This document shows, one piece after another, positions 27,333 through 34,238 of a stretch of 35,765 nucleotides of DNA. Origin of the DNA: Acidobacteriota bacterium (lineage in GTDB: Bacteria; Acidobacteriota; Thermoanaerobaculia; Gp7-AA8); contig JAOBAU010000432.1 of assembly GCA_025463165.1 (NCBI GenBank), positions 1-35,765 of the forward strand, given 5' to 3'. A model generated the notes under the pieces. It made no database searches. It had not been told where the DNA came from and saw nothing but the letters and a program-made list of their open reading frames with translations. Position 1 is the first letter of the stretch. Each line of letters opens with the position of its first letter. A program made the position numbers and the translations under genes.

Positions 27333-27589
27333 AAACGTACCTCCTGGCTTGCCGCGCGCACGTCGCACGCTTCGCACAGCCAGCCGTGAGAGGTGAGCTT
27401 GAACGGCGCTTCGTTCTCGTCGCGAAAGAGCGTGCGTGTTTCATGACACCAGTCGCAGCGGACGACGTGCGGATTTCCAAATGTCGGATTCGCACGAAGA
27501 ATGTCGGTGGCCGCTTGTTTCTCGCCGTCGACCAGATCATCACTGCGAAGCATCTTTCCTGCGGTTGTTCGAACGGCTTGTCTGGTCAC
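27329..27589 (-). CDS. Small double-CXXC (zinc-ribbon-like) protein between two kinases
   Basis: An 86-residue protein with VVRCDWCHETRTLF and HGWLCEACDVRA, two CXXC knuckles ~30 residues apart, fitting one zinc ribbon. The N-terminal ~40 residues are polar and helical. The start is GTG at 27589 with GGAG five bases upstream; it overlaps the stop of the large kinase as GTGA. Its own stop overlaps the CTG start of the next kinase. No family recognised. Being locked between two kinases, it may be an adaptor or a redox or metal-sensing part of the pathway; that is speculation. Confidence 0.82.
   Translation of the reverse strand: MTRQAVRTTAGKMLRSDDLVDGEKQAATDILRANPTFGNPHVVRCDWCHETRTLFRDENEAPFKLTSHGWLCEACDVRAASQEVRF
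27340..27345 (-). promoter_or_regulatory. Consensus ribosome site pointing to a CTG start
   Basis: AGGAGG (minus strand) is seven bases upstream of the CTG at 27332 and sits inside the end of the upstream reading frame. No ATG, GTG or TTG lies in frame at a usable distance downstream of it. It decides the start call of the RsbRD_N kinase. Confidence 0.65.
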
Positions 27590-30500
27590 GAAGTCTCCTT
27601 TTGCTGATGCGGATCCCGAAGCGGCAGCGTGATGCTGAACGTCGATCCCTGGCCGGGGCCGGCACTTTCTGCGCGCGCCGTACCGCCATGAAGTTTCATG
27701 ATCTGCGCAACGATCGAGAGTCCGATCCCGAGACCGGGCATGTGACCGGGCTCGACGGTTCCCTGCCGATAAAGCTCGAAGACGTGCGGGACGAAGTTCG
27801 CGTGGATTCCGATTCCCGTATCGATAACCGAGAGCCGTGCATCGTTGTTCTCGTTCTCCACGCGAACGTCGATCGAGCCTCCCGCGGAGGTGAACTTGAT
27901 CGCATTGCTGAGCAGATTCCAGACCACCTGGAGCAACCGAACCGGATCGCCGCGCACCGGCGCGGGATCGAGTGACGGCAGCAGCCGGATCGGAATGCCG
28001 AGATCGCTTGCACTGAGGGCGGTAATGTCGAGCGCGGAACGGACGATCGACATCAAGTCGATCTCTTCGAGCTGCACGCTGAGCTTCTGCTCGCGGATGC
28101 GGGTGACGTCGAGGAGGTCCTCGACGAACATCCGCAGCAGGTTGGCGCTCTCATCGACCCGCATCAACGCCTCGGCGTTGATCTGCGGATTGATTTTCGC
28201 GAGCTGCAGCCAGCCGAGGATCGACGTCAGCGGCGTGCGCAGTTCGTGAGCGACGGTGCCGAGGAAGGCGTCCTTGTAGCGGTTTGCACTCTGCGCCTCG
28301 CGGAACAGCATGGCCGTATCGATCGCAACCGCGGCGCGTTGCGACAACTCTTCGGCCAGTTTCAGATCGACCGGTCCGTAGCGGCGGCGCGATGAAGAGA
28401 ACGTCGTCGTCCCGAGGACTTTTTCGCGAACGATCAGCGGCACGCTGATCAATGAGCGCACTCCGAGCGCGCCGATCAGCTGCGTGATCTTCGCCTCCGG
28501 CGGGAGACCGCTGAGTTGCGCCTCGGCGATGTCGTTGAGCAGCACCGACGTCCGCAGCCGCAACGCCTGCGGCGCACCGGGTGCGTGTTCCGGCTCGTTG
28601 AACGCCGCTTCCTGGAACTGCTGCGCGAGATCGCGCAGGACCGGATTCGCGTGCGAGACGGTGAGGTGGCGGATCGAGCCATCTTCGTTGACGAGATCGA
28701 CCGAGCACCAGTCGGCGAACGCCGCCGTCGAGAGTTGCGCGAGGGAGCCGAGGGTTGTTTCGTAGTCGAGCGATGCCGCCAGCAACGCGCTGGCCTGCGA
28801 CAACATGGTCGCGGCGCGCGTTGCTTCTTCGGCGCGCAGCACACTCCGCTTGAGTGCATTGATGTCGAGCACGGCGACGATGGCGCCGTCGATTTTTCCT
28901 TCGCTCGTTCGATATGCGCGGATGCGCAACAGCCGCCAGTCGCCGCTGTTGTCCTGCACCTCGACGTCGGCAGCGGTCGATGTTTCGATCACCGCGCCGA
29001 CGAGCTTTTCGAGCTGCCATACATCGAGCGTCGACTTCACGTCGGCCAGCGGCCGTCCGCCGGCGTCGGGCGGAAGGTTGAGCAGCAGTCCGGCGGTGAC
29101 GTTGAATCGCCGCACCGTCAGGTCGATGCCGACGAAGAGGATCGGGATCTCGACGGCGCCGAGCAGATTCTCAATGTCGTCGTTCATCCGCACCAGCGCG
29201 GTGTTGCGGAGGCGCAACTCATCGTTCAGCGTGCTGAGCTCTTCGTTCGAAGACTGCAGTTCTTCCTTCGCGGTCTCGAGCTCCTCGTTCGTGCTGCGCA
29301 GCTCTTCGTCGCTCGACTGCGCTTCTTCCGCGGCCGCCGCGGCTTCGTCGGCGAGCCGCTCGCGATCGTCGATCGCGGCCGAGAGCGCCTCTCGCAGACT
29401 GTCGCTTTCCGATCGATCGGCGGCCTCCTGCTCGTTTCGTTTTGAGGGCGCCGGGATGCGGTGAAAGATGATCCACGCGCGGTCGTGAGCCTGCGACGCG
29501 TTGCCATACGGGATCACTTCGAAGCTGATGCTGTGCCGATCGTCGCCGTCGATGACGAGGATGTCTTCGCCCGCGACGCTGATCTGTTCGCGGAAGGCGC
29601 GGCGCACTGCCGGCCGAAGCACGGCAAGAACTTCGTGATGCCGGATCAGGCCGAAGAGATTGAATGACGCTTCTCCCGCCTCCAGCGAAATGAACGGCGC
29701 GACGTCACCGCGAATGCGGGTGATCTCCATCTGTTCATTGATGAGCAGACCGCACGGCGCAAGCCGGGCGGCGAGGAACGCATCGTCTTCGTCCCGCGCG
29801 TTTCCCGCCGTGCGAGGGACGGCCCGCACCGCCGGCGCCGCACGGACGATCTGTGGTGAATGCGGCGCGACGTCGAAGATCTGCAGCGCGCCAGGCAGCG
29901 GCCGTCTGCGATAGATCAGCGGATTCATCGATACGGCGGTGAGCTGATTCGTGACGCCGCGGAGATTCTCGGATCCGCCGAGCATCAGAAATCCGGTCGG
30001 TGCGACCGCGTACTCGAGCAGCGCCACCGCTTTCTTCTGCAGCTCCGGATTGAAGTAGATCAGCACGTTGCAGCAGGTCAGCAGGTCGATCCGCGAATAC
30101 GGCGGATCGCGCGTGACGTCATGCGCGGCAAACACGCAGAGTTCGCGCACCGCCTTCGCGATCTTGTAGCCGCCAGGCGAGACCGTGAAGAATTTCGCGA
30201 GCCGTTCCGGTGAGACGTCGCTCACCGCATCCTCCGAATAGAACGCGGCGCGTGCCTTCGTGAGCGACTTCTCGTTGATGTCGGTTCCGTAGATCGAGAT
30301 TCGCGGCGCATCGGAGCCGTCGAGGAACTCGAGCAGCGTGATGGCGAGCGAGTAGACCTCTTCGCCCGTCGAGCAGCCGGCGACCCAGATGCGGATGCCT
30401 CCTTCGACGTTGCGGTCTTCCAGGATCGCCGGGAAGACGACGGTCTTGAGCGCTTCGAACCGTTCGGGCTCGCGGAAGAACGACGTCACGCCGATCAGCA

Positions 30501-31341
30501 GATCCTGGTAAAGCGTTTCGAGCGCGGTCCTGTCTTTTCGCAGCGCGGACGCGTAGTCGCGCAGACTGTCGTGGTTGCCGAGGACGACACGGCGGAGGAT
30601 GCGCCGCTCGACGCTGCCACGTTTGAAGTGATTGAAGTCGACCGGGTGATGTTCGCGAAGCAGATCGAGGATGCCGTCGAAGGCAGCGCCGGACGGCCGG
30701 TCGGTGCCGGAACGATCGCGGCCGGCGACGGACGCGAGGCGTTCGGCGATGCCCGCCGGCGGCAATATGAAGTCGGCCGCGGAGGCCGCTGCGCGCGGCA
30801 TGACCGCGAACTTCGCACTTTCGGTGTCCTGCGCGAACGTGATTCCGCCGGCGTCGCGGATGAGCTTCAGTCCCGCGGCACCGTCGGCGTCGTTGCCGGA
30901 GAGCACGATGCCGATGGCGTCATTCTTCCGGTCGAGTGCGAGTGAGGTGAAGAACGTGTCGAGCGGCCGATGCGGCACCTTCGGCCTGCGCGGTGCGAGC
31001 CGCAGAATGTCGTCGTGAATCGTCATCTCGGTATCGGGCGGAATCACGTAGACGTGATCGGCCTCGATCAGCATCTCGTCGATCACTTCGTGCACCGGCA
31101 TCGCGGTGGCGCCGGAGAGGATTTCGACGAGCATGCTTTCGTGACGCGGATCGAGATGCTGGATGAGCACGAAGGCGAGTCCGCTGTGGGGCGGAATCGC
31201 GGAGACCAGCTCGATGAATGCGTCGAGCCCCCCGGCGGATGCACCAATGCCTGCGACGCGTACGGCTGTGCCGGACGGCATCGTGAGCGTTTTTCGCGCT
31301 GTGTTGCGAGCCTTCCGGGGAAGTGGAGCGCGCGGAGACAT
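27586..31341 (-). CDS. CheB-CheR-PAS-PAS-GAF sensor histidine kinase fusion
   Basis: A 1251-residue protein combining methylation enzymes with a kinase. CheB spans ~28-205 (Ser35 in GIGASAGG, His62 in LIQHLDP, Asp153 in SGNDADGAAG). CheR spans ~220-480 (ERRILRRV, TSFFREPERF, AGCSTGEEVYSLAI, GTDINEKSL). A PAS-like part lies at ~520-630 and a heptad coiled coil at ~660-725 (repeated NEEL). PAS follows at ~728-830 and GAF at ~845-1010. The kinase core has His1032 (VAHELRTPL), WNLLSNAIKF and DTGIGI, with no receiver. The ATG at 31341 has AAGGA eight bases upstream; the ATG at 31350 and the track start are less good. It leads a three-gene overlapping cassette. Methyl substrate unknown, with no MCP nearby. 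Confidence 0.93.
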   Translation of the reverse strand: MSPRAPLPRKARNTARKTLTMPSGTAVRVAGIGASAGGLDAFIELVSAIPPHSGLAFVLIQHLDPRHESMLVEILSGATAMPVHEVIDEMLIEADHVYVIPPDTEMTIHDDILRLAPRRPKVPHRPLDTFFTSLALDRKNDAIGIVLSGNDADGAAGLKLIRDAGGITFAQDTESAKFAVMPRAAASAADFILPPAGIAERLASVAGRDRSGTDRPSGAAFDGILDLLREHHPVDFNHFKRGSVERRILRRVVLGNHDSLRDYASALRKDRTALETLYQDLLIGVTSFFREPERFEALKTVVFPAILEDRNVEGGIRIWVAGCSTGEEVYSLAITLLEFLDGSDAPRISIYGTDINEKSLTKARAAFYSEDAVSDVSPERLAKFFTVSPGGYKIAKAVRELCVFAAHDVTRDPPYSRIDLLTCCNVLIYFNPELQKKAVALLEYAVAPTGFLMLGGSENLRGVTNQLTAVSMNPLIYRRRPLPGALQIFDVAPHSPQIVRAAPAVRAVPRTAGNARDEDDAFLAARLAPCGLLINEQMEITRIRGDVAPFISLEAGEASFNLFGLIRHHEVLAVLRPAVRRAFREQISVAGEDILVIDGDDRHSISFEVIPYGNASQAHDRAWIIFHRIPAPSKRNEQEAADRSESDSLREALSAAIDDRERLADEAAAAAEEAQSSDEELRSTNEELETAKEELQSSNEELSTLNDELRLRNTALVRMNDDIENLLGAVEIPILFVGIDLTVRRFNVTAGLLLNLPPDAGGRPLADVKSTLDVWQLEKLVGAVIETSTAADVEVQDNSGDWRLLRIRAYRTSEGKIDGAIVAVLDINALKRSVLRAEEATRAATMLSQASALLAASLDYETTLGSLAQLSTAAFADWCSVDLVNEDGSIRHLTVSHANPVLRDLAQQFQEAAFNEPEHAPGAPQALRLRTSVLLNDIAEAQLSGLPPEAKITQLIGALGVRSLISVPLIVREKVLGTTTFSSSRRRYGPVDLKLAEELSQRAAVAIDTAMLFREAQSANRYKDAFLGTVAHELRTPLTSILGWLQLAKINPQINAEALMRVDESANLLRMFVEDLLDVTRIREQKLSVQLEEIDLMSIVRSALDITALSASDLGIPIRLLPSLDPAPVRGDPVRLLQVVWNLLSNAIKFTSAGGSIDVRVENENNDARLSVIDTGIGIHANFVPHVFELYRQGTVEPGHMPGLGIGLSIVAQIMKLHGGTARAESAGPGQGSTFSITLPLRDPHQQKETS

Positions 31342-31468
31342 TCGGGCCATCCTTTCGAAATCGTCTGAGGATGGAGACAGTTGCGGAGCGCGCAAACGGA
31401 CCGTCGAAGTGGCGGCCCGGACGGTGCGCGCCTGTCGCGACCGGCTGGATCAGGCGTGTGACTGCTGA

Positions 31469-31539
31469 TTGAACGATTTCACTGTCGTCCGGTATTTCCA
31501 TTTCGGCAACGTTTGCGCAATGCGTTGCCAGATTGGCAG
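31469..31539 (+). promoter_or_regulatory. Candidate promoter and dyad operator upstream of XRE gene
   Basis: A possible promoter is TTGAAC (31469-31474), an 18-bp spacer, then TATTTC (31493-31498). Just downstream, GGCAACG (31505-31511) and CGTTGCC (31523-31529) are exact inverted arms. They enclose the smaller palindrome TTGCGCAA (31513-31520), almost on the same centre. A third dyad, TGCCA-GAT-TGGCA, follows at 31527-31539, touching the gene start. The placement over the start site fits self-repression by the XRE protein encoded next to it. The promoter boxes are weak; the dyads are plain in the sequence. Confidence 0.5.
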
Positions 31540-31544
31540 CCGGT

Positions 31545-31913
31545 ATGCAGGAGACGAAAATCGTGTACGGCCGTGTGCTCAGGCAACTCCGCGAATCCAG
31601 GGGACGCAGTCAGGCCGAAGTGGCGCGGAGCGTGGGGATTTCCCCGGCGCAACTGGCAAGACTCGAAGCGAATCAGCGCGGTCTTCACGTCGAGGATTTC
31701 GTCAGCATTGCAGAAGCGCTCGGAGAAAAACCGGGCAATTTGCTGCCGAATGACATCGGCGACATCGGCCATTTGAAGCCGCTCATCGACAGGCTGGCGT
31801 CCATCAAGCCTGAATTTCTCCCGCGTATCGCCGCGATCATCGAACACATCGTGCTGCTCTCGGAAGACGTGGCAGCAATCAACGCTCCGGCGCTGCGCAA
31901 AGTGCGCCGATAA
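31545..31913 (+). CDS. Cro/C1 (XRE) family HTH regulator
   Basis: A 122-residue protein with an N-terminal HTH (VLRQLRESRGRSQAEVARSV, ISPAQLARLEANQRGLHV) and a second half of predicted helices (LKPLIDRLASI, LPRIAAIIEHIVLLSED) probably for dimerisation. The ATG at 31545 is chosen; the track TTG (31533) lies inside a dyad. There is no clear ribosome site. It is divergent from the CheB-CheR kinase cassette and precedes the GlsB-type gene by 43 bp. It is a good candidate regulator of both sides through the upstream dyads, which is inference. Confidence 0.86.
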   Translation: MQETKIVYGRVLRQLRESRGRSQAEVARSVGISPAQLARLEANQRGLHVEDFVSIAEALGEKPGNLLPNDIGDIGHLKPLIDRLASIKPEFLPRIAAIIEHIVLLSEDVAAINAPALRKVRR

Positions 31914-31956
31914 CCTCACTCTTCGCCGTCATCCGACAATAGAAAGAAGGATTCAA

Positions 31957-32214
31957 ATGGAACTCATCTGGTTTCTCATCGTGGGCGCAATCGCCGGCTG
32001 GCTGGCCGGACAATTCATGAAGGGGAGCGGCTTCGGTCTCCTCGGCGACATCGTGGTCGGCGTCATTGGCGCATTCCTCGGCGGATATCTCTTCCGGCTG
32101 GCCGGCGTGAACCTCGGTGGCGGGCTCATCGGTGCGATCGTCGTCGCATTTATCGGCGCCATTGTTCTCCTGTTTCTCGTCCGCCTCATTTCGGGCCGAC
32201 GCGGCCGGCGTTGA
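31957..32214 (+). CDS. GlsB/YeaQ/YmgE family stress-response membrane protein
   Basis: An 85-residue, three-helix, glycine-rich membrane protein (LIVGAIAGWLAGQFMKGSG, GLLGDIVVGVIGAFLGGYLF, LIGAIVVAFIGAIVLLFLV), the standard pattern and length of the family once called transglycosylase-associated. Members are often induced by envelope or general stress. Their biochemical role is not settled. A good ribosome site (AAGGA) precedes the ATG. It follows the XRE gene on the same strand. Confidence 0.93.
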   Translation: MELIWFLIVGAIAGWLAGQFMKGSGFGLLGDIVVGVIGAFLGGYLFRLAGVNLGGGLIGAIVVAFIGAIVLLFLVRLISGRRGRR

Positions 32215-32374: not shown

Positions 32375-33178
32375 ATGAAACAAACGCACGCGACGGTGTT
32401 GATCCTCTTCGTCCTTATCGCAATCCCTTTCAGTGCAGTCGCACAGGTTCCCCTCGGCACCGCGCAGAATTTCGGCGTGCTTGCGGGCTCGACCGCCACA
32501 AATACCGGCCCGACGGTCGTGACCGGCCAGGTGGGCGTTTCTCCAGGCTCGGCGGTCACCGGTTTTCCTCCCGGCGTGGTCGTCGGTGGTTCGATTCATT
32601 CGAACGATTCGGTGGCCATGCTGGCGCAGAACGACCTGACGATCGCATACAACGCCGCCGCGGGCTTGCCGTGCGGTACCGATTTGACCGGACAGAACCT
32701 CGGCGGCATGACTCTGACCCCGGGCGTCTACTGTTTTGCCAGCTCCGCGTTCCTCACCGGCGGGCTGACGCTGAACATGCAGGGCAATCCGAACGCACTT
32801 TTCGTCTTCCAGATCGGCAGCACGCTCACGACGGCCAGCGGCTCGACCGTGCTGCTGATCAACAATGCCGGCGTGTGTCCGACGAACGTGTTCTGGCAGG
32901 TCGGCAGTTCCGCGACGCTCGGCACCACCTCGTCGTTGCAGGGAGACATTCTGGCTCTGACCAGTATTACGCTGACGACCGGCGCCACAACGTCCGGCAG
33001 AACGCTGGCGCGCAACGGCGCGGTGACGCTCGACTCGAATACGGTCGGCTCGTGTTCTCTGGTGCCAGGCGGCGGTGCGCCGGCAGGCGGCCCGACGCTC
33101 GACTGGATCGGACTGGCGGCATTGACGATCCTGCTGGCCGTGGCCGGACTGTTCGTCATGAATCGATCGTCGATCTGA
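32375..33178 (+). CDS. Ice-binding-like (DUF3494) secreted protein with IPTL-type C-terminal sorting signal
   Basis: A 267-residue exported protein with signal peptide (VLILFVLIAIPFSAVAQ). It carries a DUF3494 ice-binding-type beta-solenoid domain (LGTAQNFGVLAGSTATNTGP, VVTGQVGVSPGSAVTGFPPG, MTLTPGVYCFASSAFLTGGL, FVFQIGSTLTTASGSTVLL, VFWQVGSSATLGTTSSLQGD). The domain occurs in many adhesins and need not bind ice. After a Gly/Pro linker the protein ends with PTLDWIGLAALTILLAVAGL and a short basic tail. This is the plan of the IPTLxxWG-CTERM sorting signal, with WIG in place of WG. The exosortase H gene starts 3 bp after its stop, so the substrate/enzyme relation is strongly implied. Confidence 0.9.
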   Translation: MKQTHATVLILFVLIAIPFSAVAQVPLGTAQNFGVLAGSTATNTGPTVVTGQVGVSPGSAVTGFPPGVVVGGSIHSNDSVAMLAQNDLTIAYNAAAGLPCGTDLTGQNLGGMTLTPGVYCFASSAFLTGGLTLNMQGNPNALFVFQIGSTLTTASGSTVLLINNAGVCPTNVFWQVGSSATLGTTSSLQGDILALTSITLTTGATTSGRTLARNGAVTLDSNTVGSCSLVPGGGAPAGGPTLDWIGLAALTILLAVAGLFVMNRSSI

Positions 33179-33181
33179 CGC

Positions 33182-33721
33182 GTGAAATCCCGAAGGACCA
33201 CAGCGGAAGCACGGCCACCACTCAGGCCGCGACTCGTCTTCATCGCCAAATTCGTCGCGGGAATGGTCGTGCTCTACGCGGTAGTGGCGCTCAATGCGGT
33301 GAACGATCACGTCATCGTGCCGTTCACCGCATTGGTCGCTCGCTGTGCAGCCGCACTCCTGGCGGGAATCGAGAGCGGCATTGTCGTGACCGGAACGGTG
33401 ATGCGCTCGCCTTCGTTCGCGCTCGACGTCCACAATGGCTGTAATGGGATCGAGGCGGCGATCTTGCTGATCGCCGCGATCCTCGCATTTCCGGCGTCAT
33501 TGCGTTCCCGGCTGATCGGAATCGCCGCGTCCGCTGTCGCCATCGAATTACTGAACCTCGTGCGCCTCAGCTCGTTGTTCTGGCTCGGCGAGCATCACCG
33601 CCAGGTATTCGATTTCTTTCACGTGGCCGTCTGGCAGTCGTTGATCATCCTTGCGGCAATCTCGCTGTTCATTCTCTGGAGCCTGAAGTTTGCTGAAAGA
33701 CCTCCGCTCGAATCTCGCTAA
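33182..33721 (+). CDS. xrtH: Exosortase H (IPTLxxWG-CTERM-specific exosortase)
   Basis: A 179-residue integral membrane cysteine transpeptidase-like enzyme that recognises and cleaves a C-terminal sorting signal during export. The exosortase triad is visible: Cys in DVHNGCNGIEA, Arg in LLNLVRLSSLFW and His in VFDFFHVAVWQ, set among about five membrane helices. The short length, without extra domains, matches exosortase H. The start is GTG at 33182, three bases after the stop of the ice-binding-like gene; no strong ribosome site is seen, so re-initiation is plausible. The next gene starts inside its 3' end. It most likely processes its upstream neighbour and perhaps other IPTL-type proteins outside the window. 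Confidence 0.9.
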   Translation: MKSRRTTAEARPPLRPRLVFIAKFVAGMVVLYAVVALNAVNDHVIVPFTALVARCAAALLAGIESGIVVTGTVMRSPSFALDVHNGCNGIEAAILLIAAILAFPASLRSRLIGIAASAVAIELLNLVRLSSLFWLGEHHRQVFDFFHVAVWQSLIILAAISLFILWSLKFAERPPLESR

Positions 33722-34238
33722 GGGAGCGGCGGGATTCATTTTCGGCCTCGCCCTCTGGTGGGCGCTGTCCGCTCCGTATGCACGAGCTCTGGCCGCACTG
33801 AGCGAGCCGTTGATCCGAATGTGGGAACGGCCGGCCGTGACGCGGATCATCGCCGCCGGCACAGAACTGACGATCGATCGCGCTGATTTTCCTCCGCAAT
33901 CGCCGCGGCCCGGCCTGACGTTGATGGATCTGACGGCGAACGTCGTTCTGTTGACGACGCTCTTCGCCGTGAGCCGCCGCCCGTTACATGACCGGAACAT
34001 CCGCGCGTGGCTGCTGGCGACCGTGCTGCTCGTGCCGGTCCACGTCGCGGCGATCGTCATGAACGTGCAGTCGATCTACGCGCTCCGGCTCGGGCCGTGG
34101 AGCCGCGTTCACTATGGCGCCGCCGCCGCCAACTTCTGGGGAGCGGGAGCGCACTTCTACTCGCTGATCGGCGAGTTCGGCGCCGCCTTCGCGCTCTGGT
34201 GGCTTTTCCGCCCGACGCCGGACCAATTTAAGGGGTGA
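33690..34238 (+). CDS. Exosortase H-associated membrane protein
   Basis: A 182-residue protein with about four membrane helices (GAAGFIFGLALWWALSAPYA, LTLMDLTANVVLLTTLFAVS, AWLLATVLLVPVHVAAIVMN, FYSLIGEFGAAFALWWLFR) and one exported loop. It overlaps the exosortase gene by 32 bp. The TTG start has GGAG eight bases upstream. Size, topology and position match the membrane protein that regularly follows exosortase H genes. Its role is not established; it may hold or hand over the sorting substrate. Confidence 0.8.
   Translation: MLKDLRSNLAKGAAGFIFGLALWWALSAPYARALAALSEPLIRMWERPAVTRIIAAGTELTIDRADFPPQSPRPGLTLMDLTANVVLLTTLFAVSRRPLHDRNIRAWLLATVLLVPVHVAAIVMNVQSIYALRLGPWSRVHYGAAAANFWGAGAHFYSLIGEFGAAFALWWLFRPTPDQFKG

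Follow-up and report, generated by a model that had tools for sequence, protein, structure and literature searches.

A candidate dedicated exosortase H cassette for an ice-binding-like DUF3494 protein in an Acidobacteriota genome

Here, we describe three genes on the forward strand at positions 32375-34238 of the window, the whole 35,765-nucleotide stretch of DNA that was analysed, which is contig 416 of a 5.1-Mb Acidobacteriota MAG (96% complete, 4% contaminated). They encode a tailed DUF3494 protein, referred to below as the cargo (32375-33178, + strand, 267 aa, ATG start), an exosortase H of the lineage that we call XrtH-A (33182-33721, + strand, 179 aa, GTG start) and an XrtH-associated membrane partner (33690-34238, + strand, 182 aa, TTG start). 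Cargo and exosortase are separated by 3 bp, and exosortase and partner overlap by 32 bp, confirming the arrangement reported in the first-pass annotation of this DNA. G+C content is equal in the locus (0.634) and the window (0.636).

The cargo begins with a predicted signal peptide (MKQTHATVLILFVLIAIPFSAVAQ, 32375..32446, + strand, from the translation, with a hydrophobic peak at residues 7-25), for which cleavage is expected after AVA or AVAQ. It is followed by a DUF3494 beta-solenoid domain (32477..33046, + strand) that covers positions 1-207 of PF11999 (DUF3494/Ice_binding) and scores 208 bits, over the cut-off of 28.7. The best solved relatives by sequence are ice-binding proteins, including 6EIO from an Antarctic consortium (50% identity, E 1.7e-53) and a protein of Antarctomyces psychrotrophicus (44% identity to the cargo, TM 0.93). 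The fold predicted for the cargo, a beta-solenoid, matches 6EIO (E 4.3e-18, TM 0.86 by target). By sequence and model, the cargo is an ice-binding-like protein that may bind ice.

The C-terminus of the cargo is a putative sorting tail of residues 239-267 (33089..33175, + strand; full tail GGPTLDWIGLAALTILLAVAGLFVMNRSSI), delimited by the model helix and a tail alignment and composed of GPTLDWIG, a membrane helix (residues 244-265 in the predicted structure) and NRSSI. The earlier description of an IPTL-like tail holds for PTLDWIG and the hydrophobic helix; the 'basic end' that it also listed is weak, with one Arg as the lone basic residue near the end. The tail gave no match to the IPTL-CTERM models TIGR04174 and PF18203 at E up to 1, and was absent from the IPTL-CTERM profile scan of its own genome at E up to 10.

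XrtH-A scores 122 bits against TIGR04177 (cut-off 86) and has the Cys, Arg and His expected of an exosortase H in place, as the first reading had it. By alignment these are the putative nucleophile Cys87 in NGCNG (33440..33442, + strand) and the putative catalytic residues Arg128 in NLVR (33563..33565, + strand) and His147 in FFHVAVW (33620..33622, + strand), all three invariant throughout the XrtH-A lineage alignment. A sequence search found no relative of the exosortase with a solved structure. The partner scores 19 bits against NF041730, below the cut-off of 35; this model matches two of eight partner homologues at E up to 0.05 and misses most of the family's partners. We identify the partner by position, shared alignment and conservation instead, as in most of the loci inspected a homologue overlaps XrtH or lies close behind it, and 30 homologues align. 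The partner is predicted with very high confidence (pLDDT 95.7) to be a helical membrane protein in which residues 51-77 form a small strand region; a fold search against solved structures (PDB) gave no match at E ≤ 0.001.

Profile searches of 197 relatives matched XrtH in 105 and DUF3494 in 27. Seven genomes of the window's family hold two XrtH each, and one copy per genome forms the XrtH-A lineage (support 93/90). DUF3494 lies directly upstream and the partner directly downstream of XrtH-A in six of the seven (G000, G001, G003, G008, G011 and G013), and since these six belong to five genera a chance arrangement is excluded; the seventh, G017, keeps XrtH-A and partner with no adjoining DUF3494. 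The genes flanking the cassette differ between genomes. The tail is present on each of the six adjacent DUF3494 proteins, so the untailed homologues beside the same exosortase that would have spoken against the unit were not encountered. Holders of XrtH-A are Thermoanaerobaculia and Acidobacteriota MAGs, and three of eight loci are titled 'Chersky' isolates, a name linked with Siberian permafrost. In a pattern scan of one genome per species (84,980 species), XrtH-A was confined to this group apart from a single match in Pragia fontium that was short and weak, the scan being based on two short motifs by which divergent members can be missed.

The DUF3494 domains in the cassette slot form two separate lineages, one that includes G001, G011 and a DUF3494 of another family and one of G000, G003, G008 and G013, with at least three changes forced by well-supported branches. 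Two domain lineages in the same slot imply either a change of domain with tail and slot retained, or two separate assemblies of the cassette. Away from the locus, G003 and G013 encode further DUF3494 proteins whose tails are WG-type (GGPTLSGWG), which indicates that the tail follows the locus and not simply the domain. A second DUF3494 of G003, also away from the locus, carries a lineage-type tail, so the cassette is not strictly tied to one substrate.

The adjacent tails share the pattern [PS][TA]L[DN]xxG(L/M)xxLxxLLAxAGxFxxxR. The three positions before the Gly vary among lineage tails (DWI, NIA, NFV, DAF, DFV, DSV), and PTL tails without Trp are present elsewhere in the class, including in other families alongside ordinary XrtH; a simple 'DWIG motif' was rejected as a signature for the former reason, and the WIG variant to which the first-pass annotation drew attention is no signature in itself. 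A lineage tail model trained on the six adjacent tails gave 63-80 bits for seven proteins across the 197 genomes, namely the six training tails and the second DUF3494 in G003, with the next best at 38.7. The window tail scores 75.6 bits when trained on and 58.5 when held out. Five of the six tails, when held out, score 48.3-62.5 bits compared with 38.4 or less for any other tail, in a comparison set of about 34 tails that is a subset of those in the genomes; the held-out G001 tail scores 35.0, below an unrelated tail at 42.6, and is not separable. None of the six adjacent tails matches IPTL_CTERM at a threshold as loose as E 0.2, which other tails from most of these genomes attain. One further relative, G007, has a DUF3494 protein with a similar tail (GAPTLDGFALAILIALVTGAGLFAMKRF) and ordinary XrtH only, with no XrtH-A. 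Another, G009 (86% complete), has 17 IPTL-like tails and no XrtH match, possibly through an assembly gap.

The window genome holds two exosortase-family matches, XrtH-A and a second XrtH with its own partner on contig 225 (L012 1790-2798); a PTL-tailed gene was not detected in the surrounding 9 kb of the second locus. Two IPTL-CTERM tails are over the cut-off (contigs 258 and 426, that on contig 258 reading VPALSEWG) and two to three are weaker (contigs 298, 21 and 325), all off the window contig. One protein in this genome has the lineage tail; its second DUF3494 protein, on contig 8, ends in GGPTLSFWLLVVLG. The window cassette is accordingly not the sole such system in its genome, and the many canonical IPTLxxWG proteins that were earlier named as an argument against a dedicated unit are present in part, as a second XrtH, two tails over the cut-off and two to three weaker ones. 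These canonical IPTL tails can be assigned to the second XrtH.

Linkage of DUF3494 to exosortases extends beyond the window's family. Among 396 Acidobacteriota genomes, 17 have both a DUF3494 and an exosortase match, and in 11 of these 17 the DUF3494 gene has an exosortase-family gene no more than 3 kb away, where uniform placement predicts 0.044; the count is inflated by kinship within families, of which seven remain.

At the level of sequence we see the gene order, the tail, the catalytic residues, a conserved unit, and a second enzyme alongside the other tails. From these we infer that the tail is cleaved, that the protein is transferred to another molecule and located at the surface, and that the enzyme is specific, as follows. 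The DUF3494 beta-solenoid would cross the inner membrane via Sec and be retained there by its C-terminal helix. XrtH-A would then cut at or near the PTL motif using Cys87, Arg128 and His147, with help from the partner, and the mature solenoid would be handed to the outer surface or matrix, while the genome's other exosortase H would handle ordinary IPTL-type proteins. This scheme is modelled by analogy on the working model for cyanoexosortase B (PMC12188702). We give a probability of roughly 0.62 to the reading that the three genes are a dedicated export-and-sorting cassette and that the second exosortase H serves ordinary IPTL-type proteins. Conservation of the pairing across related genera, and its return in other forms elsewhere in the phylum, suggest that these proteins have a dedicated route to display on the cell surface. 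The dedicated exosortase H-cargo unit proposed from the first inspection of the locus is well supported by conservation, by two domain lineages in one slot and by a distinct tail; its strict one-substrate form is weakened by the second tailed DUF3494 in G003, and a 'self-contained' unit, as first described, would be a further step. A private exosortase-cargo cassette is likely from these comparisons, and strict exclusivity goes beyond them.

The two XrtH could instead be interchangeable, with XrtH-A beside DUF3494 for co-regulation, both enzymes processing all IPTL-like tails and the tail differences reflecting drift. Such a reading would account for G007, where a similar DUF3494 tail occurs with ordinary XrtH only, for the coexistence of W-less tails with ordinary XrtH in other families, and for the failure to separate the G001 tail when held out. 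It fits less well with a tail type that tracks the locus even across differing domain lineages, and with the failure of every adjacent tail to reach IPTL_CTERM at an E value that others in most of the same genomes attain, and we regard it as unlikely. That the tail is a mere membrane anchor of a periplasmic DUF3494 protein, with no sorting and incidental neighbours, would suit its single basic residue and its place below both IPTL-CTERM models. Conservation in six genomes with changed flanks and the 11 of 17 adjacencies across the phylum make incidental linkage very unlikely, however, and we hold the anchor explanation to be highly improbable. A different matter, compatible with the cassette, is whether the cargo acts on ice or is a surface adhesin for minerals, polysaccharide or cells. 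DUF3494 by itself does not prove ice binding, and relatives have putative Ig repeats between the DUF3494 domain and the tail (G380; consensus), like stalked surface proteins; on the other side, the nearest solved structures (44-50% identity) are ice-binding proteins, some relatives with XrtH-A are titled Chersky isolates, and no adhesin domain was found in the cargo. We lean somewhat against the adhesin role while taking it as a serious contender.

Returning to the dedicated cassette, adjacency of DUF3494 and exosortase takes several forms in the phylum. In G380 an XrtH lies beside a VPTLSEWG-tailed DUF3494 protein, and in G406 an EpsH-type exosortase lies beside a DUF3494 protein with a PEP-like tail. 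In the G380 protein (L182:3991-6192), VPTLSEWG occurs about 100 residues before the end and is followed by further membrane-like segments. In six genomes (G210, G279, G354, G368, G403 and G464) the neighbour of DUF3494 is a double exosortase of 440-570 aa (L183:2325-3764, L184:4658-6127, L185:3683-5008, L186:4536-6257, L187:5442-6794 and L188:3576-5081; further loci L215-L244). Its two modules match the XrtH set at 99.6% and 95.6% by hhalign (reversed controls below 1%), and Cys, Arg and His are present in both modules in all 12 proteins examined. No specific NCBIfam exosortase cut-off was reached, the generic exo_archaeo signature being the only one found. The C-terminal part may resemble the partner, an indication that is suggestive only, as hhalign gave 86% with six sequences and 29% with twelve (shuffled columns far lower). 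In the class of G279, the double exosortase is found in 29 of 193 genomes, with DUF3494 within about 1.5 kb in 13 of the 29 (seven families). A constant association with DUF3494 was rejected, as family f16 genomes with the double exosortase have no DUF3494 match and family f57 has none within 1.5-kb flanks; in f57 the enzyme probably has another cargo. We think it tentatively possible, at odds just short of even, that DUF3494 is a recurrent private exosortase cargo across the phylum that arose more than once, with the window XrtH, the G380 XrtH, the G406 EpsH-type enzyme and the double exosortase as instances. If so, the solenoid may depend for its display on an enzyme kept apart from general sorting, and an exosortase with two sites may carry out two consecutive steps.

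The XrtH/IPTL-CTERM system (TIGR04177, TIGR04174, NF041730), DUF3494 with PEP-CTERM and dedicated sorting pairs are all known already. The window locus is like the first in an enzyme over the cut-off, its catalytic residues, a downstream partner and a PTL-type tail with helix, and differs in that its enzyme is a second, cargo-linked copy, its tail reaches no IPTL-CTERM model and its partner falls below the model's cut-off. Nostoc sp. HG1 has an ice-binding DUF3494 protein with PEP-CTERM, whose recombinant form structures ice, along with 20 other PEP-CTERM proteins and, within a polysaccharide locus, a homologue of EpsH (PMC7783341). That protein shares the domain and an exosortase-type C-terminal signal with the cargo, but its tail is PEP rather than PTL and the enzyme there is not cargo-linked (PMC7783341). 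DUF3494 with PEP-CTERM has also been counted in Arctic Ocean metagenomes (PMC9957290). Rhombosortase, like XrtH-A, is encoded beside a putative single target, bearing GlyGly-CTERM, but has another enzyme fold, and adjacency there accompanies just one target in each genome, unlike the window genome with its other XrtH and tails (PMC3237569). Cyanoexosortase B, whose deletion alters exoproteome, motility and biofilm, likewise has an associated protein encoded immediately downstream, but is the single enzyme for 35 PEP-CTERM proteins in that genome (PMC12188702). Among the open-access papers searched, which do not include the main exosortase-family paper, none names both DUF3494 and exosortase. 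Three features appear to be new: a second XrtH tied to a cargo that has a tail type of its own, the recurring adjacency of DUF3494 and exosortases, and the double exosortase, which with two Cys/Arg/His modules per chain is apparently undescribed.

Exosortase specificity and products are little known. Here a small enzyme-cargo pair, its one cargo having a known fold, shares a genome with another XrtH, and specificity can be tested directly. The repeated pairing suggests attachment to the cell, rather than release as free antifreeze, for many environmental DUF3494 proteins, which changes their possible roles, and the double exosortase gives mechanistic studies a new architecture to examine.

Downstream of the cassette, a protein of at least 488 aa runs off the contig (window 34300-35763); neither Pfam nor NCBIfam gave a match to it at E up to 1. 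A c-di-GMP riboswitch suspected upstream was rejected, as Rfam matches for an RNA element were at chance level only. The upstream genes (window 27586-32214) read as a large CheB/CheR-like kinase, an XRE regulator and a transglycosylase-associated protein; similar genes flank the cassette in G003 and partly in G008, and a Crp-like regulator flanks it in G001, G011 and G013. The kinase and Crp-like names are readings of the sequences, and regulation of the cassette by these neighbours is possible.
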